This document shows positions 11,978 through 64,000 of a DNA stretch of 64,000 nt, in pieces. Position numbers and translations under genes: made by a program. Under the pieces are notes generated by a model that worked only from the letters and a program-made list of their open reading frames with translations, was not told where the DNA came from and searched no databases. Source of the stretch: Siphonodentalium dalli (lineage: Eukaryota; Mollusca; Scaphopoda; Gadilida; Siphonodentaliidae); assembly GCA_032622095.1 (NCBI GenBank), contig CP136061.1:91117845-91181844 (forward strand), read 5' to 3'. Each line of letters begins with the position of its first letter. The stretch's first letter is position 1.

Positions 11978-12123
11978 CTGCAATGAACCAGGAACCGACC
12001 ATCGATGTGTTGATAACTTATCGCCTCTGATAGCAGCAGTAGGAAATCGTCAAGACTTGCCGTGTCGGTGAAATCAGAGCCCGATAGGAACTGAATATGA
12101 GTAACTTCTCTACTACTTTCATC
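11978..12123 (-). CDS. Receptor exon: altered WPD loop through catalytic His-Cys
   Basis: A 146-bp exon after acceptor TTTTCCAG encoding [12 protein letters not shown], then LSGSDFTDT, a leucine-rich helix ([11 protein letters not shown]) and DGRFLVHC followed by AG|GTTATT. R-E-V-T-H-x-Q-F and V-H-C are standard PTP landmarks. W-P-D-H-G is changed to G-S-D-F-T: Asp is kept, but Trp and Pro are lost. The exon ends in phase 2 inside the codon after the catalytic Cys, the usual PTP intron position. The next exon was not found. Confidence 0.87.
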
Positions 12124-15100
12124 CTGGAAAATGAGATCAGAACACAGAGTAATTTGATTCAACTGAATGACGAAGACAGATGGTAATACATTGACATGAA
12201 TTACTAATATGAGCCCCCAATCAGTAAAAGATCACGACATTTATTTGAGTATCTGAGTTAAATTTATAAAAGGAATGTGTAACTAACAAAATATAAACAA
12301 TCCGTCAACAAAATCCAAATCAACTCAGAGTATAACCTTCATAACTTATTTAATCAATATAAACATATGTTGACTGTTAAGACTATAATTTTTTATTTCT
12401 ATGTAAGTAAGCCCAGTTATTTTATCAGGCATGAAATATATCTCCCATAACATAAACAATGTTCATCATCATCTGAATTTGCATATCTGGATGATTCCAC
12501 TGGTCATCTTTGCTTGTGACATGCGTACAGCTACTGTCAAAGCTGCCTGGTACTCGGTTAACGCATGAGTGGTGCCAAGTGACAGTATGAGCAACCTTGC
12601 TCAATACAAGGGTCAAATATTGGTATGGGATTTTGAAACAGCAGACAATCCGACAATTGCACGTCACTCAAAGTTGCCAAGCCCGATGCTGTGTGAAGAC
12701 TCACAATAGACCAGAGACGCGCTGTGTGATGAATGACAATAGATCAGAGACGCGATGTGTGAAGACTCACAATAGACCAGAGATGTGATGTGTGAACACT
12801 CACAATAGACCAGGGACGCGCTATGTGAAGACTCACAATAGACCATAGACGCGCTGTGTGAAGACTTACAATATAACAGGGACGTGGTGTGAACTCATAC
12901 CGCTGTGTGTACAGCGAATACAAGCCCGGCATGCTAACCACCATAGTAGTGGGGATAACCTTAAGGTCAGGACTGTGTTCATATGAGTTTAATGTTCCCT
13001 CACATATCATCAAAACACAGGGAGTCTGAATGGTATGCATCATTATGAATGTCATGTTTTCCGAAGTGTGGACTACATGCATTGCCTGCATAGCATCGCT
13101 GATTTGTCAGATTTTTTGAATCACACAATTGCATATCACATATGTAATATTAATATTAGTGTATTAAACTGTTATGCCAATGTCCTATCAGTTAAGTTTA
13201 CAACGTCACAGAACATACACCAGCCCATCCCATAAGTTTATAAAGTTAATTGCACCACTGATTCTTGAACATATCAGTACCTTTACAAACGTGAAACAAA
13301 CAAAAACAGTGCCGTTATACAGGTGATACCGAAATAGTTCACAGCATAATCACTATACTCACTCTCCAAACCGTCAGTTCTCTTAACGTGAAAGATGTCA
13401 TCCTTTCTTCTGATTTCAGAATGATTGCTGTTTTCCCACATACCATTGGTGCATCCAACTTCTTAGGCCAATAGGCAGGACAAGCATGCTGTAGATAATA
13501 CGCAGTAAATAATGTAACGACACATAGAAATAAGCAAGTTATTGTATGTCTCAAATAAAACAGTTTGTTACACTCCTCCCAATTTTACCCACTTATAATT
13601 GGCTCAAGTCATGTACCGGGCAACAAATCACAATGTCGCCAACTGAACATGGAGACATTGTTTTAGTTGCCCACCTGATGTTCTATTGCAAGACTTTTCC
13701 AAGCACACACATACACAGTACAGTATCTCAACTATATCACATGGGTGCAATAATACAAAAATCTTATATAACCCAATGGGTAATGCAAACGACACAAGTT
13801 GTGGTGATGACTAATTTCCGTGTATTTAGTTAACACTGATATTCGAACATTTCAGTTGATACGTTTATCGGGAAAGTGCAATTCTATACTTCTTCAACGT
13901 CTGGGAAATGAAATATATTACTGTCGAAATGATTTTGCGACATTGAACAAGGTGATGGCTCGAGGTAGGTTGGTTATAAGTTCAGACCGGTGTATAACAT
14001 ATTCGTTTGTCGTGCATGAATTCGTCTGTAGACTTATCCCTTATAACATATTTCTGAGGCGTGTTTGTATTTTTATTGTTGAAATATAATTACAACTTCT
14101 TGCCCTTTCGCTTAAATGCGAACACTTGATTGGTCAATGCCCTTAGATACGCTTTGTAGCGACAATCTCAATCAGCCTAGGGAAATGTCGCCCCATAACA
14201 AGGCGACATTTCCTGAACGCGTCCTTAGTTACCATACCGTGAAACCAAATTATCGAATTAGACTGATCATTGAAACTATGCAATGCGATACTTACATGTA
14301 GTTGGGAATAAAGTAATATGTTACATGACTATTCCACCATTAATATTAGTATTTATCCAGCTTCGGGCATAATAATATGACAAGACAGTGGTCATGAGAG
14401 CATAGAATGCACCTTTGTGTCGATTGTTTACCGTTCGAGTTTGTCACCGGAGACCGAAAATTCGGTGGGGAAGTTTGGGAACACCGCTTTGGAATTGCTA
14501 TCGACTCTGGTGTCCTGATGGCAATAGATGTTCTAGAACCGTTTTAATTAAGTGAATTTTACAACAACATGTACAGTCTAATAGTTTACGGTGTGGTGTA
14601 TTGCTTTTGTGTACCGAAGTTGGAACTTCGGAAACATAGATCGAATTGTGTGTGTGAAGTTCCGGTCGGTCGCCCAATTTATTCTCGACCCTATTTCCTA
14701 TTTTCGGTTAAAAGAAAAGATAAAGTCCAGACACAAGTATCACTTGGGTAGTTTTACTATTTTAGTGTTTTAAATATAGTTTCTTCATAAAGTTCATTCT
14801 CCCTATGTCAGAATCGCATATACATGAGAATGCACTGACACAGGATATTTAATGCAGCTCCCGTCATGAAAGTCTACCTATGGGAGAATCACATATATAA
14901 GAGAATGCTCTGGAACGTGCTCTTTAATGTTGCACCAGCGCAGCTCCCGTCTAGAAAGGGGTAATTGCAACTAAGTACGAATCTAGAAGCAACTGACAAG
15001 AACAGAATAGACAACAGTAGAACATTGATGATCAGCACTACTAAATGTCTTTATATCTCAGACTGCATGCATGATTGTACCCAGGCATACATCAACACCC

Positions 15101-18100
15101 CGAATATGTTTCCGTAAGACAGATATGTAGTACAGACAACAGTCAAAACGTGTAACCAGAATTAAATGGACTCAGTTGGCATATGTGAAACCACGTCTGC
15201 AAAACAATTATGTACGTTACTATGTAATCATTAGTGTTACTGATACATGTACTTTACTGATCAAAGTTCAACTAGTCCAATAAAATACCAAAATCCAATC
15301 AAAAAGAAAATAATATAAAATGGAAAATGTCAAAGCATACTCACATTCTGAGTAACAGATTTAAAATATATTTGTTGACAAACTGCTTGTAATAATGGTT
15401 TTAACAATCATGACTAGATAATTATATTTATAGTCAATCTGGTCAATCTGTTTTTCCATGTTCGTTTTGGTGATTACCGATCTACAGAAGTTTTATGGTT
15501 TCTAACATCTCTGGGATATCTTCGGAAAACTGTCTGTTCCGTTATAAACTTCCAATAATAACACCAAGTTCATAAAGATGTGCTATCGACGCGACAATTT
15601 CAATTCATTAAGTTCACCTAAAGACGGTCTAAAATCTGTTTTGATTCAGACAGACACGATGTAGATGCGACAAATTTAATTAAGAGCGAAAAATGTGCAC
15701 ACTATTTTGTCTCTTTACCGATTGTGGTTTGGCAATGAATCTTCAACACGTTTTGTAGTACAAACCTGTTCTGAATCACTCGCCACTCCATTTAGCATAA
15801 CAATGATTTGGCAGTTCGTGTTCCACACAACTGACCACAAGTCTTCTAAATTCCCAGCAACTGGATCTACATATATATTCATCAACATAATTAAAAACAA
15901 TTACATGACAGAAACATCGTAATATAAAATAAAATAAAAAAAGTAAAGCGAGAAAGTATATGACTGAATCACGATGAAGTTTCAAATAACGAATACCATC
16001 AATTCCAACAATCCCAAGAGCAGAATTTTATATGTTTAAGTTTCATACCTATGTGTATTGCGGTAGCATTACAAGAAAGTTACCAGTGCGTTATAACACG
16101 TTGTCATATGCGATACAATAGTATCATGTAATTAAATATTTCCTTGTAAGTGATATTTGTGAGATTTTAATCATGCAATAGGATATATAAATCACTATGT
16201 TTTATGGATGGAAATGATTCTCAGCAGGGTCGACGCTGGACTCAAATGTTCTCGTACTAAAATATTTGCCAAATTAATTTTTTGTTTGCCAAATTTAATT
16301 GAGGGTATAATTGGAGAAATTGAAGAAAATTCTCATTTTTTTATCTTTATTATATATTGTAAAACCAAACCACAGCTACAGGTAAAGTGGGCTACTAAAG
16401 CAAGCTAGTATTATTAATATATACCAGCGTAGCAATAAATATATAAGGTAGACAGTTATCAAGCTACAAGCATATCACCAAAGCATATATAGGATACATA
16501 TTAATTCACCTTGCATCTTTGTTGGCAACAAAGCGAGCCATAAATTAATCCATCGCACACCATTCACATTCAACTGATTAACCTATTGTCCTATGACACC
16601 GATATCATAAATATGTAGTGTATATAGAGGATATCCAACGAGTTATGTCGGGATATAAGATTTTAGGAAACGAGTTTGATAAATTTGATTCACAACGAGT
16701 CATAAACCACCGATATCATAAATGCGTGGTGTGTAATGTCTCCAGTCCAGTAATATGCATTGTAACATTGACTGCGTCCAGACATTAATGGATAAACTGT
16801 AAAAGCAATTTGATAATTTCCTTTTGCTGTTTCGTGCGACATGACGTAATCTACTTCGAGAGCTGATTACAAACAGATTACATGTACCAGTCTCAATTTA
16901 CAGAACATCTCTTTTTTCTGATGGTCTTCTTTTAAACATGGTGTATTGACTGTTTGATGAACGTTTGATATCGACAGAAAGAAGTATTACCGTTCTGTAA
17001 ACACCGAAGACGAGTAAGTACATTTAGCACTTTCAACATATCACTGTGTTCATATATATGTTGATTGACCTTCCCTTTCTAATGCCTGTACGGTGGTTCA
17101 CGTAACGGTAATCCACCTTTGAGTTTGTTGTATGATTAGATAGTTCACATCACATAATTAAAAAACCCACTTTCCAACATTTTTGCCAAATCTATTTTAT
17201 TTTGCCAAAAGAAAATATGTTTTTCCCATATGGCAAGCAAGGGGGTTATGTTATTGAACACATGGGAGATATGTAAATGAAACCAACCTGCCATGGCGAT
17301 ATGACTTCTTTCTTTTCCGTATCCCTGACGATATAGATATTTATTATTGGGAGATATGCACAGAAATCCATTATAAAAAAGATTCCATGACTGCGATATG
17401 TATGTCATTATTTCAACATGGTTTATAGGCAGTGCTTTGTGAGATGATATACATCGACAATATACCATCATCCATGAATAGTTATCTACCTTACATGTAT
17501 TTAAACACACATCGGTGTGGATTTATCTACCTTACATGCATTTAAACCAACATTTTTGCAGAGTTAACGACCTTATTTGGATTTTAAACCATGAGCGTTG
17601 CAGAGTTATCTACCTTACATGTATTTAAACCACCATCGCTGCAGAGTCATCTACCTTGCATGTATTTACACCACCATCATTCCAGTCATCCACATTACAT
17701 GTATTTACACCACCATCATTACAGAGTTATCTACCTTACGTGTATTTAAACCACCATCGCTGCAGAGTTATCAACCTGACATGTATTTAAATCATAACTG
17801 TTGCAAAGTTATCTACCTTACATGTATTTAAATCATAACTGTTGCATAGTTATACACCTTACATGTATTTATACCACCATCGTTGCAGAGTTATCTAACT
17901 TACATGCATTTAAACCACCATCGCTGCAGAGTCATCTACCTTACATGCATTTAAACCACCATCATTGCAAAGTTACCTATACTTTACGTGTTTAAACCGC
18001 CATCGTTGCAGAGTTATCTACCTTACATGTATTTAAACTATCATCTGTGCAAACTATTTAAACCGCCATCTGTGCGGAGTTATATACCTTAAATGATTTA

Positions 18101-54100: not shown

Positions 54101-57100
54101 ATATATATTTACACTATTCACCCGTTTAATCCACTTCATGTTATTATACACCCATAGCATGATAATCATTAAAATTCAAAAGTGCATTGGTTTTAGGGAA
54201 GTAGTTCCGCCCCTTCCAAATCCTCCTGGGTTAAATCCAAAACCCCAATAAATAAATAAAAAAAATATATACGCTAGCTGAATCAGACTTCCCTCGGGAG
54301 ACTTTATGCATGCATTGATATAGGGGCCTGAACAAATGAGAAAGCTAGGGAATGTTATCCATATTTGCGTTTCGCGCATATTTCGACCTTTTAAACATTT
54401 TGCTAAACAAGATAGCATTATTAAAAATAAATAAAAACATATTTAATTGTTTTAATGGACTTGAATCATTATATTATACATATATGTGTGTGTGCATGTG
54501 TGTAAATAATACGAGATTTGCGCTTAAAATTTGAAATAAGTGATCGAGGGACGGAAGAAATCCATACAATAACAAATTGTTTATTTATTTTACCTATACA
54601 TGTAGCTAGTTAATCATTCAGGATTTTCTGAAAATATCAACCATAATATAAATATAATGTACAGCAGCATACAATGCATGGCCCACTGAGTGTATGCTTT
54701 AGAATAAACTACAGTAAAGGGTTTCGGCTATGCATGACGTGATACAATATAGCTGTCGGCGTTTTGAAGCGATTCTCTGTGATCCGCGGTGATTCCCAGT
54801 GGTCACCGACAAGTCACCCGGACGTTTGTTTATTCAACTTAATCCGATCCACTCGGGTTCACCGTGGAACACCGTGGAAAAATCACCGTGAATGCCGGTG
54901 ATTCACAGTGGGCTTAGTGGGGTTCCCACCGTGTTGAGTGTTTTCCTTATACCACACTCTGAGTGTACTGTAGGTAAGCCATTGTAACTTACTTTTACAA
55001 GACACTTTATCACTATCGAGATAGAACCCGGATATACATGAACAAGTAAAGCTGCCTACATAGTTTGCACATGTCTGGGCACAAGTTTTACTATCACATT
55101 CATTGAGGTCTGAAACAAATGTATAGAGAAACATCATTTACATGCAGGAATCATTTTTTACCTCCATTATTTTTTGGGATTCTGTAAAGTTATCAATAAT
55201 TATAGATAGTGTATGGCTTTAGCCGCGCCACAATTACAACAACATACACTTTTGATAAAATCTGATTTCAAGAGTGGAATCCTTGTGAGTAAAATACTGA
55301 TCAAACTGATGATTGATTTGTGTCAGGTAAATGCATAATAAAGCAGTTTATGTCCAATACAGTCAAATGCAATTCATGTTGAAATATGTTAGGGTGCTAA
55401 CAAAGAGTTCTCCATCTTGATACAGTCTGAATATTTTCTGTTCTAAAAATAGCCCCCTTTGCTGAGGATGAATTTAGTAATACTATCCCACACATCAGGC
55501 TAGCATCACCAAATTCACCCTCTGGGGAACTCATTCTGCTTAGGCCTGATCTTCTGGGAAGTAGATATAATTTCACATTAACATGGTTTTAGTTACTTTT
55601 TCACTTCTGTGAAGTTTCTATATCCCTAAATTGCAGAAGATAATATTCATAACCGAGGTGACTAATGGATGAACACCACCAACTTCTACTGTAGAACTTC
55701 AGTCAATCTTATCATAGGTATCCCAGAGCAGTCGAGGCCTAAGAAGAATGAGGTCCACCGAGAGTGTATTTGCTGACGCTGGCCGACCGTGCAGGAAAGA
55801 GTCACTAAATTCACACGCTGGGTACCTCATTCTGCAAATGACTGACACATTATAATCAGGCCTGGTCAAGCCTGCAAATAGTGTGCCTGTCATTTGCAGA
55901 ATGAGGTCCCCAGATGGTGAATTTAGTGACACTATCCTGTATGGCTGGCTAGCATCACCAAATACACCCTCTGGGAAACTAATTCTGCTTATACCTCAAC
56001 TGCTATAATATGGGAGACCTAGCATCAGATTGAATTTCCCCAGTTGAAGTTGGTTATGTTCACCCATTTGTCGCCTCGATTATGCATTTTATCTTCTGCA
56101 AATTAGGGGATATAGAAACTTTCCAGAATGAAAAAGTACCTAAAAACAATGTTAATTTGAGACAAAAGATACGGGATAGCATCACTAAATTAACCCTCAG
56201 GGGACCTAATTCTGCAAATGTGAGATACATTAAAACCAGACTTGTTTACCGTCCAGGGAATGTGATGTCAATTGATAGGAGCGTTTCCGGACAGCTGTCC
56301 TCGATTAATATCTATTATTTTATTCCCTGGAGATACACTATCATTAATATACCATGTCTAAAAAACTAAAGTTGAAAATTCCAGTCTGAAAAAATATTCT
56401 GATTTACTCCCGATGTTTTACAAGAGTTTAGTATTATGCTACTTTCGGTACCATTTTATATTTTCAAAGCACCTAGTTGAAAAAGCTCACCCAATATTGG
56501 TGGGTGGAAGGGATGCAGTTAGAAAAAATATTTGAGTGATTCTCAGCTCATATTCCCACAAAGATGGATATTCGCTGATGTTTACTAATGTTCTGAGGAC
56601 CATTGCGTCACAAGAAATGAATGGACAAGATATGTTGCATGTAGGCATTGTTGCCCCATTCTGCACAATGAGTACGCTGTTGATATTTTGGTGAAATCGC
56701 AGTGAAATTTCAAGTTGTATTTTTTCTAGGTTCATGATATGTTATTTAATTTTTGTATGTGAATTCTATAAATAATACTATACTGACCTTCACATGTTTT
56801 ACCATCTGATTGGAGCTTATAGCCAAGTGGACACTGACATTTCACTTTTCCTGTTTCGTTGGAGCATATATGTTGGCAACCAGCAGCATCACACATATCC
56901 ACAACTGTAATTGGCATTATGCCAATGGCATATAACTGATCATATTTTCATATATAACCTCTTGGCTTCTACATGTCAGTACTGATTACTGATATAAAAT
57001 GCCAATCTGGGTTCTATACATGCGTAATCTACAGAAAGGATCTACTTCAGCACACTAGCAGTCGGCAAATCTCTTAACTAGAACTAAGAAAAGTGTGCAT

Positions 57101-60100
57101 TGATACCATTGTATCTCAAAGATTGAATAGTGCATGATGTTTCAGGATAGTGAAAGATAACAGACATTTAATAAGAGTAATTTTCAGGGTTTTCGTGATA
57201 TTCCCGTTATATTTTTCCACTGGAATATTACCATAAAATAAACGCCCCAGCACTTGACACCATGACGTCATTTAGCATTGAAGAGGTTAATTTTAATCGC
57301 TATACAAAAACAATTGTGGTATATTTTTTAGATGAGAATGCACATAAATAGACCGAACAGACCAGTTTGCTAGTCTGATTTATGATTCATTACTCTCATT
57401 GATTTTAAACATGAAGAATGGCGATTGTTATCTCAGCCGAGATATTTGATTGGGTAATTTTGGACAAAAATGAATAACACGGAATCCATCAATAAAACAT
57501 ATGTTAGTGAAATATTGGCAACGGGCTGCTAATACTAGATCTGGAGCCAGATGTGGAGGTGGAATGTTATATAAATTCATGACCATGCATGCTTTTCAAA
57601 ATGTTTTGACATGAGAAACGCGAAATTTACTTTGCATGGCCTAACAACTGTAGATCAAGTAATATAAAACTGCTCAATTAAACTGAGATAATACCATGTG
57701 CAATGCACGATTGAAACTACAGTCAGACTCAAAACAGTATAGAACTACTACAAAACACACCTTGGTACATTGACAACAAAACACTACCTTTCATCTAAAT
57801 ATTTAGTCGATCTTCATGCAACATATACTGGAGTAAAATATGGTGTCATTTGTCTCCAGTAGTGGTATGTTCTACGAAATCAATAAATTGTTCTGTATAA
57901 AAGTATTTTGCATATTTACGGACCTATTTCGAATTGCAGAATGTGGAAAAGAAGCGACAAAGTATGGCATCATTTGTGTCCAGAGTGGTATTGTCTATGA
58001 AATCAATACATTTCTCCAAGACGTAAGTCGATATGAAAGTATTTTGAAAATTTACAGACCTATTTGCAGAACGTGACAGATAAGCGCCAAAGCAAGAATT
58101 ACTCAGCCTAATATATAACTCCAAACAGCCTCAGACCATGAACTTTTAATGTATTCAGGCCAGTAATATGGTGCTGGGCATTTGCAGGATGAGGTGCACA
58201 GAGTGTGAATGTAGTGATGCTACTCTGGCACAGCAGGCTAGCATCATCATATTCATCCTCTGGAAACCACATTCTGCATGGCCTAATTTGTTATTTGAGA
58301 CCTAGACTCAGATTTAAGTTCCCAGATAGTGAAGATGGTGATGTGCACCATTAGGCACCTCGATTAGGCATTGTGTCATCTGCCAATTTGGAGATTATAA
58401 CAAAACTTAAAATGAAGTAGAAACTTTCTAAAGAATTTTGATTATAAAGCTACGTTCCCAGAAAAGATGAAGCCTAAGCAGAATGGGGTTCCAGGTGGTG
58501 AATTTAGTAATGCTAGCCCGCTGTCTGGGGTAATGCCACTCAATTCACTCTCTAGAGACCTCATTCTGCAATGACGGGCCACCATATTATGAGGCCTGAA
58601 TGTAATGTTGCATGTAATACAAGTAGTGTTACCTCCACTACATGTGTAGCCGTCAGCTTCCATGGTATATCCAGGAAGGCAGCTGCATGTGTAAGATCCT
58701 TGAGTATTCCTACATCTGTGCGTACAAGGGATTGTCCTCTCGTCACACTCATTAATATCTGGAAATAAGCAACCCCCAGATCACTTATATAAAATATATG
58801 CCATATTATATACCATTTGAAAGAGGAAGTTCAAAAACATTGTATTATCAACTTATCTGGTGTAATAAACTGTGAACATGTTTTTGTTTAGTTACCAACA
58901 TGTTATTTCATCTAGATTGTAGTAAAACGTGTATTATTTTCAATAGATGGAAACTAACTCTATATCTTAAAGATAGAGTTATACCTCGTCCATTGGAAAT
59001 TCATTTTTAGTTTTCATCTTCTGAGACAGAGTTGTTTCAAATGGTAAATTACAGTATTTTTCAGCTATGAATTTGTGCATACAGGTGCGCAAATTTGAAT
59101 TCAACTGAGTGAAAAATAATACGGCATTGAAGTTAAACATGAGTAAGGTAATTGCATGAACACACAACTTGTTTATTTAACTCTTCTATGACTGGAGCAT
59201 CCTGAATTTTAGATTGAACTCCTCGCTCAATTTAGTTTTAGTTTTGTTTTGTTTTTGTTTTTTTTAAATCTAAATTTTGAAAAACGCTGTTATAACATCT
59301 GCCAGGTTACCCCGATGTCACCACAACAAATTCGGTAGAATCAGTCCTGGGGTCTGGGAGAAAAAATCCAGACAGACAGACATACAGATAAACATATCCT
59401 ACTCTTATACATTGTATATAATGATAATGCACAGAGAAAACAGCGCTATTCAAGAAATGCTTGCACAATGGCATAAAAAAACACAGAATGACATCACGCC
59501 AAAGATTTAAGGTTCATGGCTATATTTACGGTGTTGTAAACGGACCAACAGCCCAATAACAAGAGTTTCATACCCTCACACAGGTTGGAGAGCATCCTGA
59601 ATCCACTGTTACATTGGCAGTAGTAACTTCCTTCTGTGTTGAAACATGCACTGTTGGATGGACAGTCAGGGTTGTTGTCACATTCATTTATATCTGTGTA
59701 TCAATAAGATTATAAGATATAACTGGAGCAGTATGGTTTCTTGGGGGTTCACGACCAGGAACATATGTCACTAATCATGTCTCTAATCCAAAGCGTTTTT
59801 TTGTCATAAATTTTGTTTAACCCTTTACCCAACAAATCGGCCAAAAACGCCCAAAGAAAGCTTCAACGGCCTAAAATATCTTCGGTCTGTCTCACTAATA
59901 CCATACAAATATGGATATCATTGGAACCGGTTCATTGACCACATTGTGATGGTTACAGTTATGCCCTGTGCCAATGCAGTCTCTTATATATGCGAGTCGA
60001 CCATATGTCGCCTCGCATATATAAGAGAATGCATCGGCCTAAACAAAAAACAATTAAAAAACAATTTTATAATTTTTTCTTACATTTTTTAACAATTTTT

Positions 60101-62850
60101 ATAATATATTTCTACATTCTTTGACAATTTTATCATTTTTAATATGTGTTAAGCCAATGCATTCTCTTATATATGCGAGGCGACCTATGGTCGACTCGCA
60201 TATATAAGAGAATGCATTGGTACAGGGCCGTTCTGTTGGGTAAAGGGTGAAAACATACATAAACGTTGGCGGGATAAACTAGCAAATGAGCTGTTGAAAT
60301 TCACAACAAAAAATCAGCAATTGTTAAACTCATATGGACAGCTCACAATTACAAGGAAATAGGTATTGATTTTGTTCGAATTTCAACCATTAAATAGATG
60401 TTCGTAAAATACAACTGCAACTCCTGCAACAATTATATAGCTCATCTATGGCTTGAGTTCCAGATAGCTGTTACCCGAACATCTGAATCGGAGGGCTTAG
60501 TAGATTCATGGCCCTAGGTTTAGCATCAAGGAATGTGGCAAAGTGGAATTATACTTTGTTTGTTGTTCGCCCACTGACACTACTATACACAAAGATATAT
60601 CGAAAGATCTTGAAAATTTTATAAAAAGAAGGGGCAGTCCTGTCTTTTGTTCACAAAACAAGAAACTTTCATAGAATTGGGAATTTCCGTGTCAGAAATT
60701 GGGAAAAATTTAGACTAATTGTCATTGGATACGGGGCCCATTTTCAGACCCTGATATCTAAAAAATCCCCGAAGGACTCACCAAAACATTTGCCATCCTG
60801 TATCACGAAGCCAGCAACACAGTCAGAGCAGTTATACACTCTCCCGAATCTCTCCTGTTCAGCAGGGGGTAAGTTTGTACAGCTATGTAGCGAGCCACAT
60901 GGATTTTCATTGCAAGCGGTGATAACAGTGTTACATATGTCACCTGAAATATATTCTCATACAATGGTGACATCCTCATCACATACCAATTGGAGGGCGG
61001 CAATAACAATGCCACATATCATCGATGTGCTTACAAAATGTGTTATCTTCCAAAAAATAAAATTTTACAGACAAACAAATCTATTTATATCTGGAAATGT
61101 AATTGGTATATGCCAATACCTTTCCATGATACAGTAATGCCCTAAATAATCGACTCCTTAACCACAGAAGAATTGTGGGTAACTTTTCAGTACTTAGTCG
61201 GAAATATGGCTTGTTATCATACATGAGAGCTTTCCGATGAAGCCATATTCCGACTAAATCCTGAAAAGTTACCCATAATTCTGCTGTGGATAAGGGGTCG
61301 ATTAATTAGGACATTACTGTAGTCCTTTATATCATATTTGTTATAAAAGATAAACTTTCATATTCATACCTTGCAGTGTAATGGCTTCTTTTTCACAAAT
61401 AGTTAATAAACGACGAAGTCCTACGAGAGATGGGGAAACAAGACACATGTCGTCTGCATAAAAAGATTATTAGTCATAGACTTACCAATCATGCACCCAC
61501 TCCATATGCATTCACATTATCACTCATGCAATTTATGTACATATTAACCCTTACTATACTAAATGAATTGTCCCATTCACTTATAAATGTATTCATAGGA
61601 ATGGACCTTTTTGTATTCATTTGGATGGATGTTAAAGTGGTGTGAACCACTCCGGTAAGGTGCTCAAATAGAAATGTAGAATAATCTTGCTTAAAGTAGT
61701 TATTTTTACAAATATTATATCCATATTGACAACACCCACCGTCATTCTTATATATTAAATAAATGCAGTGACTGTCGATGACAAAATCGTTGCATTATTT
61801 TATCGCCTATAGTTGCATCCCGAATCAATATTTACAATTGAGTGTAGTTCAGACGATGTTTTCTATGGATTGGTACGGTCGATTTGTTTGCGATTTTCGT
61901 TGATGTTAGTAAAATGCTTACACTCCTCCAGTTGGCATAAAGCCTGAGTAATAATTTATAAGTTTCTCGCACCCTAAACAGTCCATAATAATTCGTTAAG
62001 GATATATGAGCTGACATCTGCCAGTCAAAATGAACAACATTGCAGAATAATTCATATTCATTGGTGGGCAATGTTTAGATAATAAGTTCAACAACGTTTG
62101 TTGAACTTATTATCTGATCATTTCCGAAGGTAACAACCTACCAATGAGTGTTTAGTATAGAAAGTGCTAACCCTTTCAGTGCCAGGTCCGATTTTTGTAT
62201 CAACCCATATACCCTGTGCCAATGCATTCTCTTATATATGCGAGTCGACCATAGGTCGCCTCGCATATATAAGAGAATGCATTGGCCTAACAATTTTTCA
62301 TCATTTGTTATTATGTTTTACAATTTTTTACAATTTTAATAATTTTTTCTTATATTCTTTAACAGACTTATTTTGTAGGTTTAGTGCCAGGGAATCTTAC
62401 GTTTTTCATGGGCATACAAATTATTACTATGAATATTTGGTGATAGTTTTGAGTTATAACATGCCCATAAGGTTTTATCCAGTTTGTTTTTAATTTCGCT
62501 ATAGCATGCTTAAGCATACCCAAAAAATATTCAACCCAAACAAATCTATAAAAAAAAAAAAAATCAATTTGTTTAGGGCCGATTTTACAGACCGTAAATT
62601 AAGGCCGATGAGATCGGCCCCTGGCACTGAAAGGGTTAAAAAAAATAACTTAACACACTCCCTTCAATGATGAGTCTCACCTTCATATCCTATATCACAA
62701 GTGCAGCCGACCAGACTGAATGAACCATTTGTATATCTTGAATCCTCAAACACACATGTTGAATGTGCTAAATCACAGTCACATAGCCGTATCAACATTT
62801 CAATTGGCTCCGTCTGAGCGGGCATCGTAGCATCATCCACTGCTCCAATT
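11978..62850 (-). CDS. EGF-rich receptor-type protein tyrosine phosphatase-like gene, 22 exons, 5' and 3' incomplete
   Basis: Exons (low..high): 62681..62850, 60782..60943, 59574..59693, 58633..58758, 56788..56904, 54993..55109, 50537..50791, 45267..45401, 43385..43510, 40752..40892, 37861..37983, 35502..35753, 34525..34653, 29320..29452, 28425..28462, 25113..25237, 20188..20242, 19686..19747, 17288..17324, 15766..15866, 13363..13488, 11978..12123. Every exon has AG/GT borders, every junction keeps phase and none has an internal stop. The predicted protein is a type I membrane receptor: fourteen EGF-like modules outside, one transmembrane helix, and a PTP-fold domain inside. PTP domains remove phosphate from phosphotyrosine, but motif loss here makes activity doubtful. 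Cysteine spacing and PTP motifs are seen directly; the single-gene join is inferred from strand, order and phase. The start codon and signal peptide lie upstream of 62,850 and the 3' end is unresolved. Confidence 0.85.
12683..12893. repeat. 33-bp minisatellite, about 6 copies
   Basis: Unit close to CGCGCTGTGTGAAGACTCAC plus AATAGACCAGAGA. Because 33 is a multiple of three, it yields repetitive false open frames on both strands. Confidence 0.8.
13363..13488 (-). CDS. Receptor exon: PTP C-x-x-Y-W-P motif
   Basis: A 126-bp exon encoding [11 protein letters not shown], then [10 protein letters not shown] and [10 protein letters not shown] before donor GTGAGT. It matches the PTP block K-C-x-x-Y-W-P ... 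V-x-L-x-x-E-E-x-x-x-x-Y-T-I-R-x-F-x-V. Both borders are phase 0. Confidence 0.9.
15766..15866 (-). CDS. Receptor exon: PTP L-x-D-L-W ... I-I-V-M-L motif
   Basis: A 101-bp exon encoding (D)[14 protein letters not shown], then [10 protein letters not shown] and ending SDSEQ. It matches the PTP motif D-F-W-R-M-I-W ... I-V-M-L-T. Phase 1 in, phase 0 out. Confidence 0.87.
17288..17324 (-). CDS. Receptor micro-exon: degenerate F-I-A-x-Q-G-P segment
   Basis: A 37-bp exon between acceptor TCGTCAG and donor GTTGGT encoding [12 protein letters not shown]. Joined in phase 0 after NASYIN and in phase 1 before (D)PVAG, it gives [17 protein letters not shown]. This aligns without gaps to the PTP motif G-Y-x-x-x-x-x-F/Y-I-A-T-Q-G-P. 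Q-G is replaced by A-D. Confidence 0.68.
17521..18095. repeat. 41-42-bp minisatellite, about 13 degenerate copies
   Basis: Unit close to GCAGAGTTATCTACCTTACA plus TGTATTTAAACCACCATCGCT. Lies in the intron between PTP exons 19,686 and 17,288. Confidence 0.8.
18418..19631. mobile_element. Harbinger-like element with ~60-bp terminal inverted repeats
   Basis: Left end TAGGGTACGTCCATACGCTG and on, through GCAATATTGCACTGCAAACT, is mirrored at 19,571-19,631. ACTC or CTC flanks both ends. A minus-strand frame at 19,204-19,458 contains [11 protein letters not shown], resembling the N-terminal R-R-W-W-V-R-P-W motif of HARBI1/ALP1-like transposases, then loses similarity. Probably a decayed non-autonomous copy. 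Confidence 0.55.
19686..19747 (-). CDS. Receptor micro-exon: PTP H-x-R-V / N-A-S-Y-I motif
   Basis: A 62-bp exon encoding (D)[20 protein letters not shown] before a perfect GTAAGT donor. It matches the PTP block Y-D-H-S-R-V-V-L ... D-Y-I-N-A-S-Y-I very well, with D-Y-I changed to Q-F-V. It is seen directly and cannot easily be chance. Confidence 0.85.
19996..20155. mobile_element. 160-bp miniature inverted-repeat element
   Basis: Both halves are near mirror images: ACAGAATAATCATTGATTGA with ACTGGTGACGTGAC on the left, the complement on the right ending TTATTCTGT. It lies 32 bp from the donor of the 20,188 exon. Confidence 0.7.
20188..20242 (-). CDS. Receptor micro-exon: degenerate KNRY/phosphotyrosine-loop segment
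   Basis: A 55-bp exon encoding [18 protein letters not shown], ending G|GTAAAT. It sits where PTPs carry K-N-R-Y-K-N-I-L-P-Y-D. Only the second Tyr, Asn, Ile-Leu and Tyr-Asp positions survive, so the phosphotyrosine-recognition loop is altered. It enters in phase 0 and leaves in phase 1, exactly what the flanking exons require. The acceptor (AAG) is weak, with a TTAACTAAC branch-like site upstream. Confidence 0.55.
21020..23290. repeat. Three diverged copies of a dispersed repeat
   Basis: Segments at 21,060-21,250, 22,805-23,060 and 23,120-23,285 share blocks such as ATACAATGGCGGATATG, GTCTCTGTTTACATTT and TACGGTGTGGTTTATTTGGT. ATGCGTGGAC and GATGAGAACGCAACA recur at 22,622 and 23,081. An uncharacterised minus-strand open frame at 22,287-22,622 lies between them. 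Confidence 0.6.
21830..22060 (-). repeat. Dispersed repeat, inverted copy of the 35,775 family
   Basis: Reverse complement resembles 35,860-36,120 (CGATGGCGA..., TGCATCCC, GTAAATATTTACA, CTGAGTA). Other copies lie at 44,643-44,955 and 61,640-61,995. Confidence 0.55.
25113..25237 (-). CDS. Receptor exon: PTP domain wedge/helix start
   Basis: A 125-bp exon after a strong acceptor (TTATTTTCAG). It ends [14 protein letters not shown]... and then NYSDQFK before GTGATT. The pattern (I-x-I-x-x-F/Y-x-x-Y-I-x-x-L ... F-K) is the N-terminal helix of receptor PTP domains, normally just after the membrane. It ends in phase 0. Confidence 0.82.
25750..25992. mobile_element. Nested palindromic element, AGAATGAGGTCC family
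   Basis: Outer arms CAAGCCTTGAAATAGGGTGT / complement, enclosing two inner palindromes built from CAGAATGAGGTCCCCAGAGG and GTGAATTTAGTGATGCTA. Other family members: 36,690-37,130, 41,630-42,040, 55,450-55,995 and 58,150-58,600. Confidence 0.7.
26354..26586. repeat. ~76-bp tandem repeat, three units
   Basis: Units begin CACGTTTGAATTGTTTGTTT and contain CTCGTTACATGAGACGGAGA. A further unit at 27,062-27,140 suggests that later insertions split the array. Confidence 0.65.
26578..26730. mobile_element. Foldback element, ~150 bp
   Basis: Arms of about 62 bp containing GACTGTTTTTATGGAGATGT face each other around a 20-bp centre. Inserted next to the 76-bp tandem repeat. Confidence 0.65.
28425..28462 (-). 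CDS. Receptor micro-exon: juxtamembrane segment
   Basis: A 38-bp exon between TAG acceptor and GTGAAA donor, encoding [12 protein letters not shown]. It was accepted because it alone converts the phase-2 exit of the transmembrane exon into the phase-1 entry of the 25,113 exon, with Glu completed on both sides. Homology cannot be judged over so few residues. Confidence 0.6.
28898..29289. mobile_element. TTAA-flanked piggyBac-like miniature element, copy 1
   Basis: Left TTAA|CCCTTTACCCAACA, right TGTTGGGTAAAGGG|TTAC. CCCT-starting ends with TTAA targets are typical of piggyBac-type transposons. Holds two hairpins (29,048-29,113 and 29,195-29,262) around an AT-rich segment. No transposase. Confidence 0.6.
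29320..29452 (-). CDS. Receptor exon: stalk and transmembrane helix
   Basis: A 133-bp exon. It starts with a short polar stalk ([10 protein letters not shown], two glycosylation sequons), followed by about 25 hydrophobic residues ([18 protein letters not shown] and on) and then the basic stop-transfer run RIRKHNNE. This fits a type I single-pass membrane protein. It leaves in phase 2 with donor GTAAGT at 29,319, some 30 bp from a TTAA-type miniature element. Confidence 0.88.
31414..31645. repeat. Direct duplication of ~85 bp
   Basis: 31,414-31,500 and 31,561-31,645 share TGAACATGGGG, TTTTCGAGAA and ATTTCGGCCAATT with ACGGCAT. Cause unknown. Confidence 0.55.
32300..33583 (+). mobile_element. 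3' end of a non-LTR retrotransposon (LINE)
   Basis: Begins with a truncated coding end (see 32,334-32,732), continues through a 3' untranslated stretch of TCTG/TATG-rich sequence and ends in an ATAATAATAATAATAAC tail. 5' truncation is normal for LINE copies. The 3' limit is inferred from the AAT repeat. Confidence 0.5.
32334..32732 (+). pseudogene. LINE ORF2 C-terminal fragment with Cys/His zinc-binding motif
   Basis: A 132-residue plus-strand frame with [19 protein letters not shown] (C-x2-C-x8-H-x5-C), followed by a C-terminal helical tail. This C-C-H-C motif is found after the reverse transcriptase in many animal LINEs. The reverse transcriptase itself is absent; stops occur just upstream of the ATG at 32,334. 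It is a truncated copy, not a host gene. Confidence 0.5.
34252..34400. repeat. Two degenerate hairpins of the TATATAAGAGAATGCATTGG family
   Basis: Hairpin remnants at 34,252-34,300 and 34,328-34,398, followed by AAGCTCCAGTCATGGAAGGG, a sequence that accompanies this family elsewhere. Confidence 0.55.
34525..34653 (-). CDS. Receptor exon: membrane-proximal calcium-binding EGF module 14
   Basis: Phase 1-1 exon of 129 bp reading (D)[25 protein letters not shown] and [13 protein letters not shown]. Its final G combines with AT of the next exon to give Asp, leading directly into the stalk and transmembrane exon. Confidence 0.92.
34975..35331. repeat. AT-rich degenerate array plus hairpin
   Basis: Repeats of TTTTTCTTACATTCTTTAAC with variable spacing, ended by a palindrome at 35,266-35,331. 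The same array-and-hairpin layout, on the other strand, is seen at 50,012-50,464. Confidence 0.6.
35502..35753 (-). CDS. Receptor exon: double module, MEGF/laminin-type EGF 12 plus calcium-binding EGF 13
   Basis: A 252-bp phase 1-1 exon. The first module (CVGHWGHNC..., [13 protein letters not shown]) is MEGF/laminin-type. The second ([12 protein letters not shown]..., [12 protein letters not shown]) is EGF-like, with His where an aromatic residue is usual. Its organisation is identical to exon 50,537-50,791. Confidence 0.92.
35775..36140 (+). repeat. Dispersed repeat family, ~340 bp
   Basis: Shares GTGAAACACTCCGATAGGGT, ATAGAAATGTAGAA and CAGTTGACACAGCACCTGAG-like blocks with 44,643-44,955 and 61,640-61,995. 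Non-coding, no clear terminal repeats. Confidence 0.6.
36205..36560. repeat. Two palindromic AATGTTCAGATAATAAGTTC units
   Basis: Palindromes at 36,213-36,290 and 36,493-36,558. Related units at 39,430-39,512, 49,546-49,616 and 62,066-62,132. Confidence 0.6.
36697..37130. mobile_element. AGAATGAGGTCC-family element, ~434 bp
   Basis: Long terminal arms reading GTGTCTGACATTTGCAGA on the left and its complement on the right, each arm itself palindromic. The middle holds a block (TTGAAGTTGGTGATGTTCAC and TCGATTATGCATTTTATCTT) shared with 41,720-41,900, 56,030-56,160 and 58,310-58,440. Confidence 0.65.
37861..37983 (-). CDS. Receptor exon: calcium-binding EGF module 11
   Basis: Phase 1-1 exon of 123 bp reading (D)[23 protein letters not shown] and [13 protein letters not shown]. 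The module has two extra residues (YK) between the aromatic position and the fifth cysteine, unusual for this family. Otherwise it is a normal calcium-binding EGF. Confidence 0.88.
38186..38305. mobile_element. TA-flanked CAGTAATG miniature element, internally deleted
   Basis: Left TACAGTAATGCC, right GGCATTACTGTA. Members of the family: 39,211-39,395, 43,929-44,118, 48,028-48,140 and 61,132-61,321. TA flanks and CAGT ends suggest a Tc1/mariner-type origin. Confidence 0.6.
38400..39060. repeat. Dispersed repeat with CCAAGATGGC motifs
   Basis: Several AAATCCAAGATGG/TATGGC words and an end segment GACGGATGCCAACCCATGGT shared in diverged form with 10,470-10,520. Looks like a decayed non-autonomous retroelement or MITE; class not determined. 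Confidence 0.45.
40752..40892 (-). CDS. Receptor exon: divergent EGF-like module 10
   Basis: Phase 1-1 exon of 141 bp with six cysteines in EGF order: [16 protein letters not shown], then [10 protein letters not shown] and QRC. It has none of the calcium-binding signature (no D-x-N-E start, no C-x-N-x4-Y-x-C). It probably forms a non-calcium spacer module. Splice borders are good (CAG in, GTATGA out). Confidence 0.82.
42495..43308. repeat. 48-bp minisatellite with 52-54-bp variants, about 16 copies
   Basis: Unit ACAATGCGCTACATGCAGCT plus TGTCTTAACAGTGAAAACCT and AGATCAGT. Alternating spacer variants (ACAATG against AGCATAGATAG) form a higher-order pattern. Lies in the intron just downstream of exon 43,385. 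Confidence 0.88.
43385..43510 (-). CDS. Receptor exon: calcium-binding EGF module 9
   Basis: Phase 1-1 exon of 126 bp reading (D)[23 protein letters not shown] and [13 protein letters not shown]. Full calcium-binding EGF consensus. A 48-bp minisatellite ends about 75 bp downstream in the following intron. Confidence 0.92.
43929..44118. mobile_element. CAGTAATG miniature foldback element
   Basis: Left ACAGTAATGCCCTAAATAAT, internal TCAGGATTTAGTCAGAAATA mirrored on the right. Right end partly decayed. Confidence 0.65.
45267..45401 (-). CDS. Receptor exon: calcium-binding EGF module 8
   Basis: Phase 1-1 exon of 135 bp reading (D)[24 protein letters not shown] and [13 protein letters not shown]. 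Six cysteines with the calcium-binding consensus and a slightly long first loop. Acceptor is TAG, donor GTAACA. Confidence 0.9.
45446..45953. mobile_element. Foldback element with ~80-bp inverted repeats and two inner hairpins
   Basis: Arms include GGTCCATTATTCTTTGTAGG and TATGTGACCCGCCATATCAA. Hairpins at 45,546-45,611 and 45,789-45,852 belong to the TATATAAGAGAATGCATTGG family. Confidence 0.72.
45952..46383. repeat. 50-bp minisatellite, about 8 nearly identical copies
   Basis: Unit GACAGACCATGAGGCATTGT plus ATTTATTATTCTTTGTAGGC and TTGTTCATAT. Half of the unit equals the end of the adjacent foldback element's inverted repeat. Confidence 0.9.
46877..47101. mobile_element. Hairpin-containing TTAACCCTTTCATGACGG-type element
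   Basis: Starts TTAACGCTTCCATGACGGGA, ends TAGTCATGAAAGGGTTTAA, with two degenerate hairpins inside. Confidence 0.55.
49655..49790. repeat. Single hairpin unit with CATCACGAAAAGGG end
   Basis: Palindrome at 49,669-49,733, followed by GCAGCTCCCATCACGAAAAG. Same family as 46,877-47,101. Confidence 0.55.
49963..50514. mobile_element. TTAACCCTTTCATGACGG element with two hairpins and AT-rich array
   Basis: Left TTAACCCTTTCATGACGG, right CATCATTAAAGGG. Hairpins at 50,012-50,075 and 50,399-50,464 flank a degenerate array of AAATGTAAGAAAAAATTATA-like units. It ends 22 bp before the donor of the double-EGF exon at 50,537. Confidence 0.6.
50537..50791 (-). CDS. Receptor exon: double module, MEGF/laminin-type EGF 6 plus calcium-binding EGF 7
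   Basis: A 255-bp phase 1-1 exon with two modules. The first ([10 protein letters not shown]..., then [13 protein letters not shown]) is the laminin/MEGF type, with the G-x-x-C start and the GW-x-G-x-x-C end. The second ([12 protein letters not shown]..., [12 protein letters not shown]) is a calcium-binding EGF. Exon 35,502-35,753 has the same two-module layout, which suggests internal duplication of a block of the gene. Confidence 0.92.
51575..51690. repeat. Foldback pair with AAAATAATCC core
   Basis: CAGCTTACGGGTTTT and GGATTATTTT are mirrored as AAAATAATCC and AAAACCGTACGCTACTC. Short inverted-repeat element. Confidence 0.5.
52774..54966. mobile_element. 2.19-kb element with ~43-bp terminal inverted repeats
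   Basis: Left ACACTCAGAGTGTGGTATAA plus GGAAAACACTCAACACGGTG, exactly mirrored at the right end. The inner zone repeats GATTCACGGTG/CACCGTG words. TAC flanks both sides. No recognisable transposase; the longest frame (53,528-53,791) is AT-rich and unrecognised. Confidence 0.65.
54993..55109 (-). CDS. Receptor exon: calcium-binding EGF module 5
   Basis: Phase 1-1 exon of 117 bp reading (D)[21 protein letters not shown] and [13 protein letters not shown]. Full calcium-binding EGF consensus. The donor GTAAGT at 54,992 lies only about 25 bp from the right end of the inverted-repeat element at 52,774-54,966. Confidence 0.92.
55450..55995. mobile_element. AGAATGAGGTCC-family elements, two or more copies
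   Basis: Palindromic blocks at 55,470-55,545, 55,745-55,860 and 55,885-55,990, arranged as nested or adjacent elements. Confidence 0.6.
56788..56904 (-). CDS. Receptor exon: EGF-like module 4, weak calcium site
   Basis: Phase 1-1 exon of 117 bp reading [22 protein letters not shown] and [13 protein letters not shown]. Six cysteines are in EGF order. The usual D-I-N-E is replaced by V-V-D-M and the aromatic residue before the fifth cysteine by Val, so calcium binding is less certain than in its neighbours. N-E-T is a potential glycosylation site. Confidence 0.88.
57835..58078. repeat. Direct tandem duplication, ~120 bp x 2
   Basis: Copies share TATGGTGTCATTTGT/TATGGCATCATTTGT, GAAATCAATA and AAAGTATTTTG with TTTAC and ACCTATTT. 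Both strands carry short spurious open frames. Confidence 0.7.
58150..58600. mobile_element. AGAATGAGGTCC-family element
   Basis: Ends with the palindromic GCAGAATGGGGTTCCAGG and CACTCTCTAGAGACCTCATT blocks, 33 bp from the donor of exon 58,633. Confidence 0.6.
58633..58758 (-). CDS. Receptor exon: calcium-binding EGF module 3
   Basis: Phase 1-1 exon of 126 bp reading (D)[23 protein letters not shown] and [13 protein letters not shown]. Six cysteines with the full calcium-binding consensus. Acceptor TTTCCAG, donor GTAACA. Confidence 0.92.
59574..59693 (-). CDS. Receptor exon: calcium-binding EGF module 2
   Basis: Phase 1-1 exon of 120 bp reading (D)[10 protein letters not shown], then [12 protein letters not shown] and SGFRML. 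This is the classic calcium-binding EGF pattern: D-I-N-E-C start, six cysteines, and the C-x-N-x4-Y-x-C signature associated with Asp/Asn beta-hydroxylation and Ca2+ binding. Donor is GTATGA. Confidence 0.9.
59821..60247. mobile_element. TTAA-flanked piggyBac-like miniature element, copy 2
   Basis: TTAA|CCCTTTACCCAACA on the left, TGTTGGGTAAAGGG on the right. Hairpins at 59,971-60,036 and 60,156-60,222. Clear sister of 28,898-29,289. Confidence 0.62.
60782..60943 (-). CDS. Receptor exon: EGF-like module 1
   Basis: Phase 1-1 exon of 162 bp beginning (G)DICNTV and ending DGKCF before donor GTGAGT. It has eight cysteines including NPCGSLHSC and NCSDCVAGF, so it is a long, slightly divergent EGF-like module. 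N-C-S is a potential N-glycosylation site. The first residue is completed by the last base of the preceding exon, giving a smooth GYEG-D join. Confidence 0.75.
61132..61321. mobile_element. TA-flanked CAGTAATG miniature element, full length
   Basis: TACAGTAATGCCCTAAATAA at the left and its complement at the right end (GGACATTACTGTA), with long mirrored arms. The best preserved copy of the family. Confidence 0.7.
61640..61995 (+). repeat. Dispersed repeat, 35,775 family
   Basis: GTGTGAACCACTCCGGTAAG, AAATAGAAATGTAGAATAAT and TTGCATCCCGAATC match the 35,775-36,140 and 44,643-44,955 copies. Confidence 0.6.
62168..62639. mobile_element. TTAACCCTTTCAGTGCCAGG element containing a hairpin insert
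   Basis: Left TAACCCTTTCAGTGCCAGG, right CCTGGCACTGAAAGGGTTAA. TTAA-type target and CCCTTT ends as in piggyBac-like elements. A perfect palindrome of the TATATAAGAGAATGCATTGG family lies at 62,218-62,286. Confidence 0.62.
62681..62850 (-). CDS. Receptor exon 1 seen: atypical Cys-rich (EGF-like) module
   Basis: The most 5' exon recognised. It reads IGAVDDAT..., then LCDCD, a central [13 protein letters not shown] motif and the glycosylation sequon NGS. The C-x-C-(5)-G-Y-E-G end is EGF-like, but the first half is not a normal EGF module. It enters in phase 2 and leaves in phase 1 with donor GTGAGA, unlike the 1-1 EGF exons that follow, so a different domain probably precedes it outside or near the right edge. 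Acceptor is a clear pyrimidine tract ending CAG. Confidence 0.65.
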
Positions 62851-64000
62851 CTGAAGGAACGATAATTGCAAGGTCTTTATAGCAAATGAGTGAATTTGAT
62901 TTTTTCAAGAACTAAATGTGTGGACAAATGTTGTTTCTCGATGAATGGCTATATATTTCTGTTTACTCTTCTCGAAAATATGAGTGCGCTCACAGCAGTG
63001 GGGGAGGGGAGGCATGACAGAGGGCATGCATGAATCCAGTTCCACTTGCCCTCATTGAACACCTGACTGAAGAAGTTGAAACTGTTTAAAACGACACAGC
63101 GTATTTACTAGACAATTGCGTACTCCTCCCAACAGTCAACTTAGTTATAAAGTTCTTACAATTGTCTCTTACTCTCCTTTTGCCATCTAAAGTGTGAATC
63201 GCTATAGCACAAGGTCATACTTCCCTTCTGACTCTTACTAGTACATGTATGTGCTTTCTATATTTAGCGCGGGGTTTTCCAGCATAAATGGCGAAAACGG
63301 ATCGCCCGAAAGTCATATTTCCTATGTGTTTTGAGAACAATTCCCACACTAAAAACTGATGCCAGAATGGAGGATCAGAGCGGTAGTTTTGTTGTTTATT
63401 TTTGCAAGACACTGATTGGTTTCGTCAAAATTGCAGCAAATTAGGACTCTTGTATTTGACCTGCCGCGAGTGTTGTCATGACATTGTCATTCATGTGCGT
63501 TTATACTCTTGTGTTGATAAAATAATCGGAGAACCAAATCACACCGTTTTGCAATATAGTTCTTTGCTTTTAGTGGGACTTTCCAAACGTAAGGTACGAA
63601 ATTACTCAAATTTTAATCAATATTTTGTGTGTTTAACAAGGGCAGCTTGTTGTTCTGCTCGCTTAGTATATATCTTAATATTGCAGAAGTCCACCAAATG
63701 TGGATAGCATGTCACCGGTAGCAGCGGTCTTACCGAGACACCAAGGTAGGTAAACCCTGCATGGAGTTTGACACTATAATGCGCTCATCGTCTGAAATAA
63801 TTTTCCATCTGTTATGTTACCATTATGTGGAAACTCATATTTCAGAGAGATGTTTTGCCCAAATGATGAGTATTTTACGTTTAACCCTTCCAAGAAATCA
63901 CACGAATGCGCTGTGCCAATGTATTATTTTATATATTCGAGTCCCCCATGGAGATCCTTGCATATATAAGAGAATACATTTCCCCAAAAATATTTACCTT
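62851..64000. other. Right edge; no supported exon
   Basis: The upstream part of the receptor gene should begin here or beyond the window. The minus-strand frame at 63,215-63,412 shows no recognisable domain. A degenerate hairpin-family palindrome lies at 63,915-63,980. Confidence 0.4.

Follow-up and report, generated by a model that had tools for sequence, protein, structure and literature searches.

The window analysed here, 64,000 nucleotides of the scaphopod Siphonodentalium dalli (C1:91117845-91181844, C1 being contig CP136061.1), was read together with 30 kb below and 40 kb above it, and whole-genome comparisons covered 2.23 Gb in 9 contigs. Its minus strand carries, in order, exons for 14 EGF-like modules, a transmembrane (TM) exon and exons of a protein tyrosine phosphatase (PTP) fold, all with compatible phases. 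This is the arrangement that the initial annotation of the same DNA had described, and both the exons and candidate splice sites for them could be located. The extent given there, 62,850 to 11,978, held in part: 34,525, 25,237 and 11,978 coincide exactly with exon ends, whereas the limits of the gene had to be moved, because exons continue beyond both ends of the window and the gene measures at least 99 kb from the NIDO exon to the stop codon. A signal peptide exon and a start codon were not found in the window or in the 40 kb above it. We lean towards one chimeric minus-strand gene, which would encode a single-pass receptor with a MUC4-like ectodomain, one TM helix, a dead PTP domain and a short, tyrosine-bearing tail. 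On the plus strand of the window, a Pfam scan covering 10 of the window's 14 ORFs with at least 100 amino acids gave no score above cut-off.

EGF Array and MUC4-Like Ectodomain

Within the window the ectodomain consists of 13 Cys-rich minus-strand exons, from 62,874 to 34,525, which encode the 14 EGF-like modules (12 of EGF/EGF_CA type and two of MEGF/laminin type) and one further Cys-rich segment. In window coordinates these are:

62,681-62,874, minus strand: Cys-rich exon after the He_PIG domain, acceptor uncertain (from splice-candidate and domain reading)
60,782-60,943, minus strand: EGF-like exon E1, phase 1-1
59,574-59,693, minus strand: EGF_CA-type exon E2, phase 1-1
58,633-58,758, minus strand: EGF_CA-type exon E3, phase 1-1, donor at 58,633 or 58,639
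56,788-56,904, minus strand: EGF-like exon E4, phase 1-1
54,993-55,109, minus strand: EGF_CA-type exon E5, phase 1-1
50,537-50,791, minus strand: exon E6, one MEGF/laminin-type and one EGF_CA-type module, phase 1-1
45,267-45,401, minus strand: EGF_CA-type exon E7, phase 1-1
43,385-43,510, minus strand: EGF_CA-type exon E8, phase 1-1
40,752-40,892, minus strand: divergent EGF-like exon E9, phase 1-1, scoring weakly in the HMM (E 2.0)
37,861-37,983, minus strand: EGF_CA-type exon E10, phase 1-1
35,502-35,753, minus strand: exon E11, one MEGF/laminin-type and one EGF_CA-type module, phase 1-1
34,525-34,653, minus strand: last EGF_CA-type exon E12, phase 1-1

Candidate phase-1 donors accompany all 13 exons and candidate phase-1 acceptors 12 of them, the first exon having an acceptor candidate in phase 2 only. 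Pfam EGF_CA matched two joined sets of modules at 94 bits (four stretches) and 121.6 bits (six stretches). An HMM trained on ten EGF modules recovers the ten, each on the minus strand and with E < 1e-3, a result that is circular for these matches; the same model gave no match in 10 Markov-simulated windows.

The ectodomain had been taken for an EGF array alone, and this did not hold. Exons with NIDO, VWD, C8-3_MUC4 and He_PIG domains lie on the same strand at C1:91183066-91204254, some 1-22 kb beyond coordinate 64,000. In Pfam searches of the exon translations, joined for the first two domains, NIDO scored 66.3 bits (E 4.7e-18), VWD 60.8 bits, C8-3_MUC4 41.1 bits and He_PIG 24.6 bits against a cut-off of 24. 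These exons above 62,874 are known by their domain matches, and the splice-site and phase checks span 62,874 to the stop. Near window coordinate 76,100 an AMOP-like Cys pattern can be seen by eye, with no Pfam match. The presence of NIDO, VWD, a MUC4-type C8-3 and He_PIG upstream makes the ectodomain MUC4-like, and it belongs to a family with further predicted members in the genome. NIDO/VWD/EGF matches of lower identity, about 33-51%, occur at C7:0.58-0.77 Mb, C2:0.05-0.15 Mb and C2:13.95-14.17 Mb.

Exons from the TM Helix to the Stop Codon

The remainder of the gene model starts with the TM exon and runs to the stop codon; its eleven exons encode 403 residues with no internal stop. Nine of them lie in the window, and the catalytic-loop and last exons are found 10.9-12.9 kb below window coordinate 1:

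29,320-29,452, minus strand: TM exon, phase 1 in, 2 out
26,256-26,326, minus strand: cytoplasmic linker exon, phase 2 in, 1 out
25,113-25,237, minus strand: exon for the juxtamembrane part and the first PTP helix, phase 1 in, 0 out
23,977-24,067, minus strand: PTP exon with degraded pTyr loop, phase 0 in, 1 out
19,686-19,747, minus strand: PTP exon (begins with a split Y codon), phase 1 in, 0 out
17,288-17,324, minus strand: PTP exon (ends with a split D codon), phase 0 in, 1 out
15,766-15,866, minus strand: PTP exon (begins with a split D codon), phase 1 in, 0 out
13,363-13,488, minus strand: PTP exon, phase 0 in, 0 out
11,978-12,123, minus strand: PTP exon, degraded WPD loop (GSD) to the HC-AG junction, phase 0 in, 2 out
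C1:91106809-91106944, minus strand: catalytic-loop exon (SDGIGATG), below the window
C1:91104934-91105116, minus strand: last exon with the stop, below the window

AG acceptors are present at all eleven exons and GT donors at 10 of 10, and all phases fit. The exons at 26,326, 24,067, 17,324 and 13,488 and the last exon were found through comparison with paralogous loci; the linker exon at 26,326 is required because the TM exon (phase 2 out) is incompatible with the exon at 25,237 (phase 1 in). The spliced 403 residues match Pfam Y_phosphatase at 174.2 bits against a cut-off of 20.9, over profile positions 7-232 of 234, and the PDB sequences closest to the spliced intracellular part are RPTP-alpha and LAR. 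Since the stop lies about 45 residues past the PTP fold, a second PTP domain is absent from the gene model.

The C-terminal tail carries the tyrosine motifs YDTF, YYQL and YDEL. The ITAM consensus is YxxL/I-x6-12-YxxL/I; its spacing is not present in this tail. Pfam gives no ITAM match. The tails of two farther relatives, P39 and P4 (see below), carry YDSLxNQxPxxYDRL, which fits ITAM spacing, with two matches in P39 and one in P4, and each has an additional overlapping match to the ITAM pattern that starts in the last PTP helix.

Degraded Active-Site Motifs

In the HCX5R signature of PTPs, the Cys is the nucleophile and the Arg is catalytic. Aligned to RPTP-alpha D1, the signature HCSAGVGRTG is replaced by HCSDGIGATG, so that the Cys is kept and the Arg of CX5R has become Ala. 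Three further segments, which we take to be the WPD, pTyr and Q loops, also depart from the sequence of active PTPs: SWPDFG reads SGSDFT, KNRY reads KAKW, and MVQT reads MVPK, with the Gln replaced. The PTP domain is, as judged from these motifs, catalytically dead.

The same replacement runs through the family. Ala occupies the Arg position in all 17 loci with at least 58% identity over the catalytic-loop exon, the window's own included. This count leaves out 36 matches that belong to two tandem arrays on C3; the units read from these arrays do not carry the motif. A whole-genome search for DGxGATGxF gave 14 sites, against none in the reversed control; these are 14 of the 17 loci, and the remaining three, on C6, read SDGIGATGVL. 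The HC of the preceding exon was read in five of the 17, namely the window, RP84, a copy at C1:366 kb, P39 and P4. Loci of lower identity carry GRTG (e.g., C3:131144642, C4:258576867 and C5:80756223), a looser pattern with 28 genome matches compared with 12 in the reversed control.

The idea of an active receptor phosphatase with EGF repeats, in favour of which one could cite the retained Cys of the HC motif and the complete PTP fold, is highly improbable and was rejected, given Ala for the CX5R Arg here and in 16 of 16 close relatives (hence in all 17 loci), GSD for WPD, AKW for NRY and the replaced Q-loop Gln. The receptor had been proposed to act on tyrosine signalling, and in the sense of dephosphorylation by its PTP domain the Ala at the catalytic position speaks against this. 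With the catalytic Arg missing, signals would probably be passed by binding rather than by phosphate removal.

Several repeats and clusters related to these exons were also seen. The two satellite-like arrays on C3 (C3:298705485-298708974 and C3:300418061-300421032, together the 36 matches) are built of units of about 167 bases derived from the catalytic-loop exon, and the units read lack DGIGATG. In two RPTP copies, short tandem repeats of the YRTDMVPKGVSHIS kind, which resemble the end of the catalytic-loop exon, continue 3′ of it into the intron. Further clusters of PTP exon matches occur at C5:43.85-45.27 Mb and C5:80.68-82.87 Mb (among the best 150 of 344 candidates), with GRTG at six sites of the second, and PTP matches of 44-47% identity, which might represent the 3′ end of the C5 ectodomain gene described below, lie at C5:82.4-82.9 Mb.

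Paralogues of the Two Halves and Their Junction

The ectodomain has two colinear paralogues, at C5:83.07-83.20 Mb and C2:64.55-64.65 Mb, both with more EGF exons after the equivalent of E12; an EGF profile did not find these additional exons in the window. Among the matches listed, no TM, juxtamembrane or PTP match accompanies either paralogue, for which 20 kb past E12 was read, short of the 3′ ends.

The half from TM to PTP has its own paralogues elsewhere, RP84 (C1:84.94-85.02 Mb) and RP211 (C3:211.25-211.30 Mb). Both share with the window the TM exon and about 220 preceding intron bases, at 85-86% identity over 385-397 bases. The juxtamembrane exon is common to all three loci, and the linker exon, read in the window and RP211, is common to these two. 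Over the 20 kb that was read above the TM exon, RP84 and RP211 show neither an EGF nor an EB exon, and no NIDO, VWD or EGF match lies near them among the matches listed (the best 80 of 102 and the best 73 of 898). Upstream of the TM exon the two are 96% identical to each other over 2.86 kb, which suggests a recent segmental duplication, and the window matches there in short dispersed pieces only. A long 63-base minisatellite (C3:211228802-211235309) is located upstream of the RP211 TM exon, near the 2.86 kb RP84-like stretch.

The farther relatives of the PTP half, P39 (C1:39.05 Mb) and P4 (C1:4.86 Mb), have EB modules upstream and no EGF modules (Pfam EB, 26.7 bits on the joined P39 modules), and we infer that these modules and the PTP exons belong to the same genes. 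Around the window, the best match to the EB profile in 134 kb had an E of 0.3. EGF-TM-PTP had been put forward as a receptor class, possibly expanded in molluscs; among the best-scoring matches listed, a second locus with that order was not found in the genome.

The limits of homology of the two halves leave a single interval between them:

29,681-34,251, minus strand: inferred junction interval; ectodomain homology stops near 34,252 and RPTP homology starts near 29,681 (dispersed repeats aside)

These limits place the change-over within the phase-1 intron that separates E12 from the TM exon (34,525-29,452), and the gene looks like an exon-shuffled chimera joined within this intron. Through recombination there, a shortened MUC4-like ectodomain would have come to precede the exons of a pseudo-RPTP from TM to stop. 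A MUC4-PTP architecture may instead be older and have since been lost or moved at the C5 and C2 paralogues.

Selective Constraint and the Case for One Gene

Constraint was assessed by Nei-Gojobori counts, in which a few edge codons of the exon pieces may contain intron bases. Between the window and RP84, 169 codons in five PTP exons differ by 19 synonymous and 18 nonsynonymous changes, giving an omega of 0.26 (Fisher 1.2e-4); the corresponding omega is 0.29 for window-RP211, 0.20 for window-P39 and 0.35 for P39-P4. RP84 and RP211 are separated by 6 synonymous and no nonsynonymous changes, RP84 and the C1:366 kb copy by 2 and 3. In nine ectodomain exon pieces omega is 0.55 against the C2 paralogue and 0.60 against the C5 paralogue, and the C2-C5 comparison itself gives 0.75, indistinguishable from neutral (p 0.29). 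When changes in the PTP exons are polarised by P39 and P4, the window branch receives 4 synonymous and 7 nonsynonymous changes and the RP84 branch 9 and 5, with 11 unresolved, and the linker exon compared with RP211 has 3 synonymous and 12 nonsynonymous changes (omega 1.19, 24 codons). The PTP codons are thus constrained pairwise within the family, not demonstrably on the window copy's own branch, and the 4 to 7 ratio together with the linker omega makes relaxed constraint on the window copy possible. Under neutrality, with branch lengths assumed, the chance of encountering no stops is 0.10-0.33 for the PTP half and 0.02-0.07 for the nine ectodomain pieces.

The EGF array, TM exon and PTP exons probably share a single transcript, since both halves look incomplete alone, only 5 kb lie between them, the phases fit, and the interval offers a single, weaker hydrophobic stretch (at 33,582, with a mean hydropathy of 2.27 versus 3.4 for the TM helix). 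One could instead picture two functional neighbours, a MUC4-like gene with a last exon of its own following E12 and a separate pseudo-RPTP with an undetected ectodomain and start, and it is true that elsewhere in the genome, among the matches listed, the two halves occur only apart. Such a pair is quite unlikely, as it would have to be accommodated in just 5 kb from E12 to the TM exon, where neither an EB module nor an extra EGF exon is found and the hydrophobic stretch just mentioned is the only one. The homology to RP84 and RP211, moreover, ends about 230 bases above the TM exon, which means that their upstream region was not carried along.

The other arrangement to be weighed is one of fragments juxtaposed after segmental duplication, in which a truncated MUC4-like gene and a 5′-truncated pseudo-RPTP lie side by side, one or both decaying, and make no joint protein. 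The break in DNA homology at either end of the 34.3-29.7 kb interval and the weak constraint on the window branch would agree with this, as would the seemingly partial copies found elsewhere (exons c and d were undetected at RP211, and exons a and b at the C1:366-370 kb copy). We nevertheless regard it as unlikely: the eleven 3′ exons have suffered no stop, frameshift or splice-site loss, the nine ectodomain pieces have stayed open against the neutral expectation given above, omega is 0.26 in the comparison with RP84 and, for the ectodomain, 0.55 with the C2 paralogue and 0.60 with the C5 paralogue, and the phases match across the junction.

Comparison with Known Receptors

As outlined in a passage of PMC5354666, human MUC4 has NIDO, AMOP, vWD and three EGF domains, a TM segment and a 22-residue tail. 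The gene described here resembles it in the succession of NIDO, VWD, MUC4-type C8-3 and EGF modules ahead of the TM helix, and is unlike it in its 14 EGF-like modules and in some 370 intracellular residues with a PTP fold. Vertebrate RPTP ectodomains, according to part of a 2024 review (PMC10815196), are of FN3, Ig, MAM, carbonic-anhydrase-like or unstructured kind. The initial annotation had set this ectodomain apart from the vertebrate RPTP classes, and this is borne out in so far as the term “EGF” does not occur in the available portion of that review. The TM helix and PTP fold are shared with classical RPTPs, RPTP-alpha and LAR giving the best PDB sequence matches; unlike these, the present gene has a single PTP domain without the catalytic Arg.

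The pseudophosphatases PTPRU and PTPRN/PTPRN2 are likewise receptors with an inactive membrane-proximal PTP domain, the inactivity here being read from sequence. PTPRU, in the portion of the study consulted (PMC7320164), is inactive via structural rearrangements, has both D1 and D2, and binds substrates of its active relatives, whereas the gene described here has Ala for the CX5R Arg and a single PTP domain. For the eastern oyster, “EGF-like domain-containing proteins” are mentioned among the transcripts in PTP-activity GO terms (PMC13070813). The likeness is that of EGF and PTP annotation in a mollusc; the passage describes neither the domain architecture nor the presence of NIDO or VWD nor the state of the active site, and because of these oyster proteins the combination of EGF and PTP alone is not new. 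A literature search over titles and abstract openings, with most subscription journals and preprints outside its coverage, did not find a NIDO/VWD/EGF/PTP protein, nor a MUC4-like ectodomain joined to a dead receptor PTP.

Possible Working and Meaning

If the gene is expressed as one receptor, its ectodomain may bind a ligand or a neighbouring surface by means of its EGF and VWD modules, while for the PTP fold the likely role would be that of a non-catalytic binding module, acting by substrate capture, by competition with active PTPs or as an adaptor. The tail tyrosines, once phosphorylated, could be docking sites for SH2 domains. The mechanism that seems most likely to us is that a MUC4-like surface molecule captures substrates or signals as an adaptor.

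More tentatively, recent exon shuffling may have given rise to a new kind of receptor, which combines a MUC4-type adhesive ectodomain with a dead PTP whose relatives have ITAM-like tyrosine pairs, in a family of at least 17 dead-motif loci diversifying by ectodomain change (EB, MUC4-like), as immune-type or self-recognition receptors would. Should the single transcript prove true, the locus would represent a young ectodomain swap that brought a transmembrane-mucin ectodomain together with a phosphatase fold whose dead active site is common to many copies. It would then open the question of what a receptor pseudophosphatase does without an attached active domain, and whether such families are immune-type or recognition receptors.
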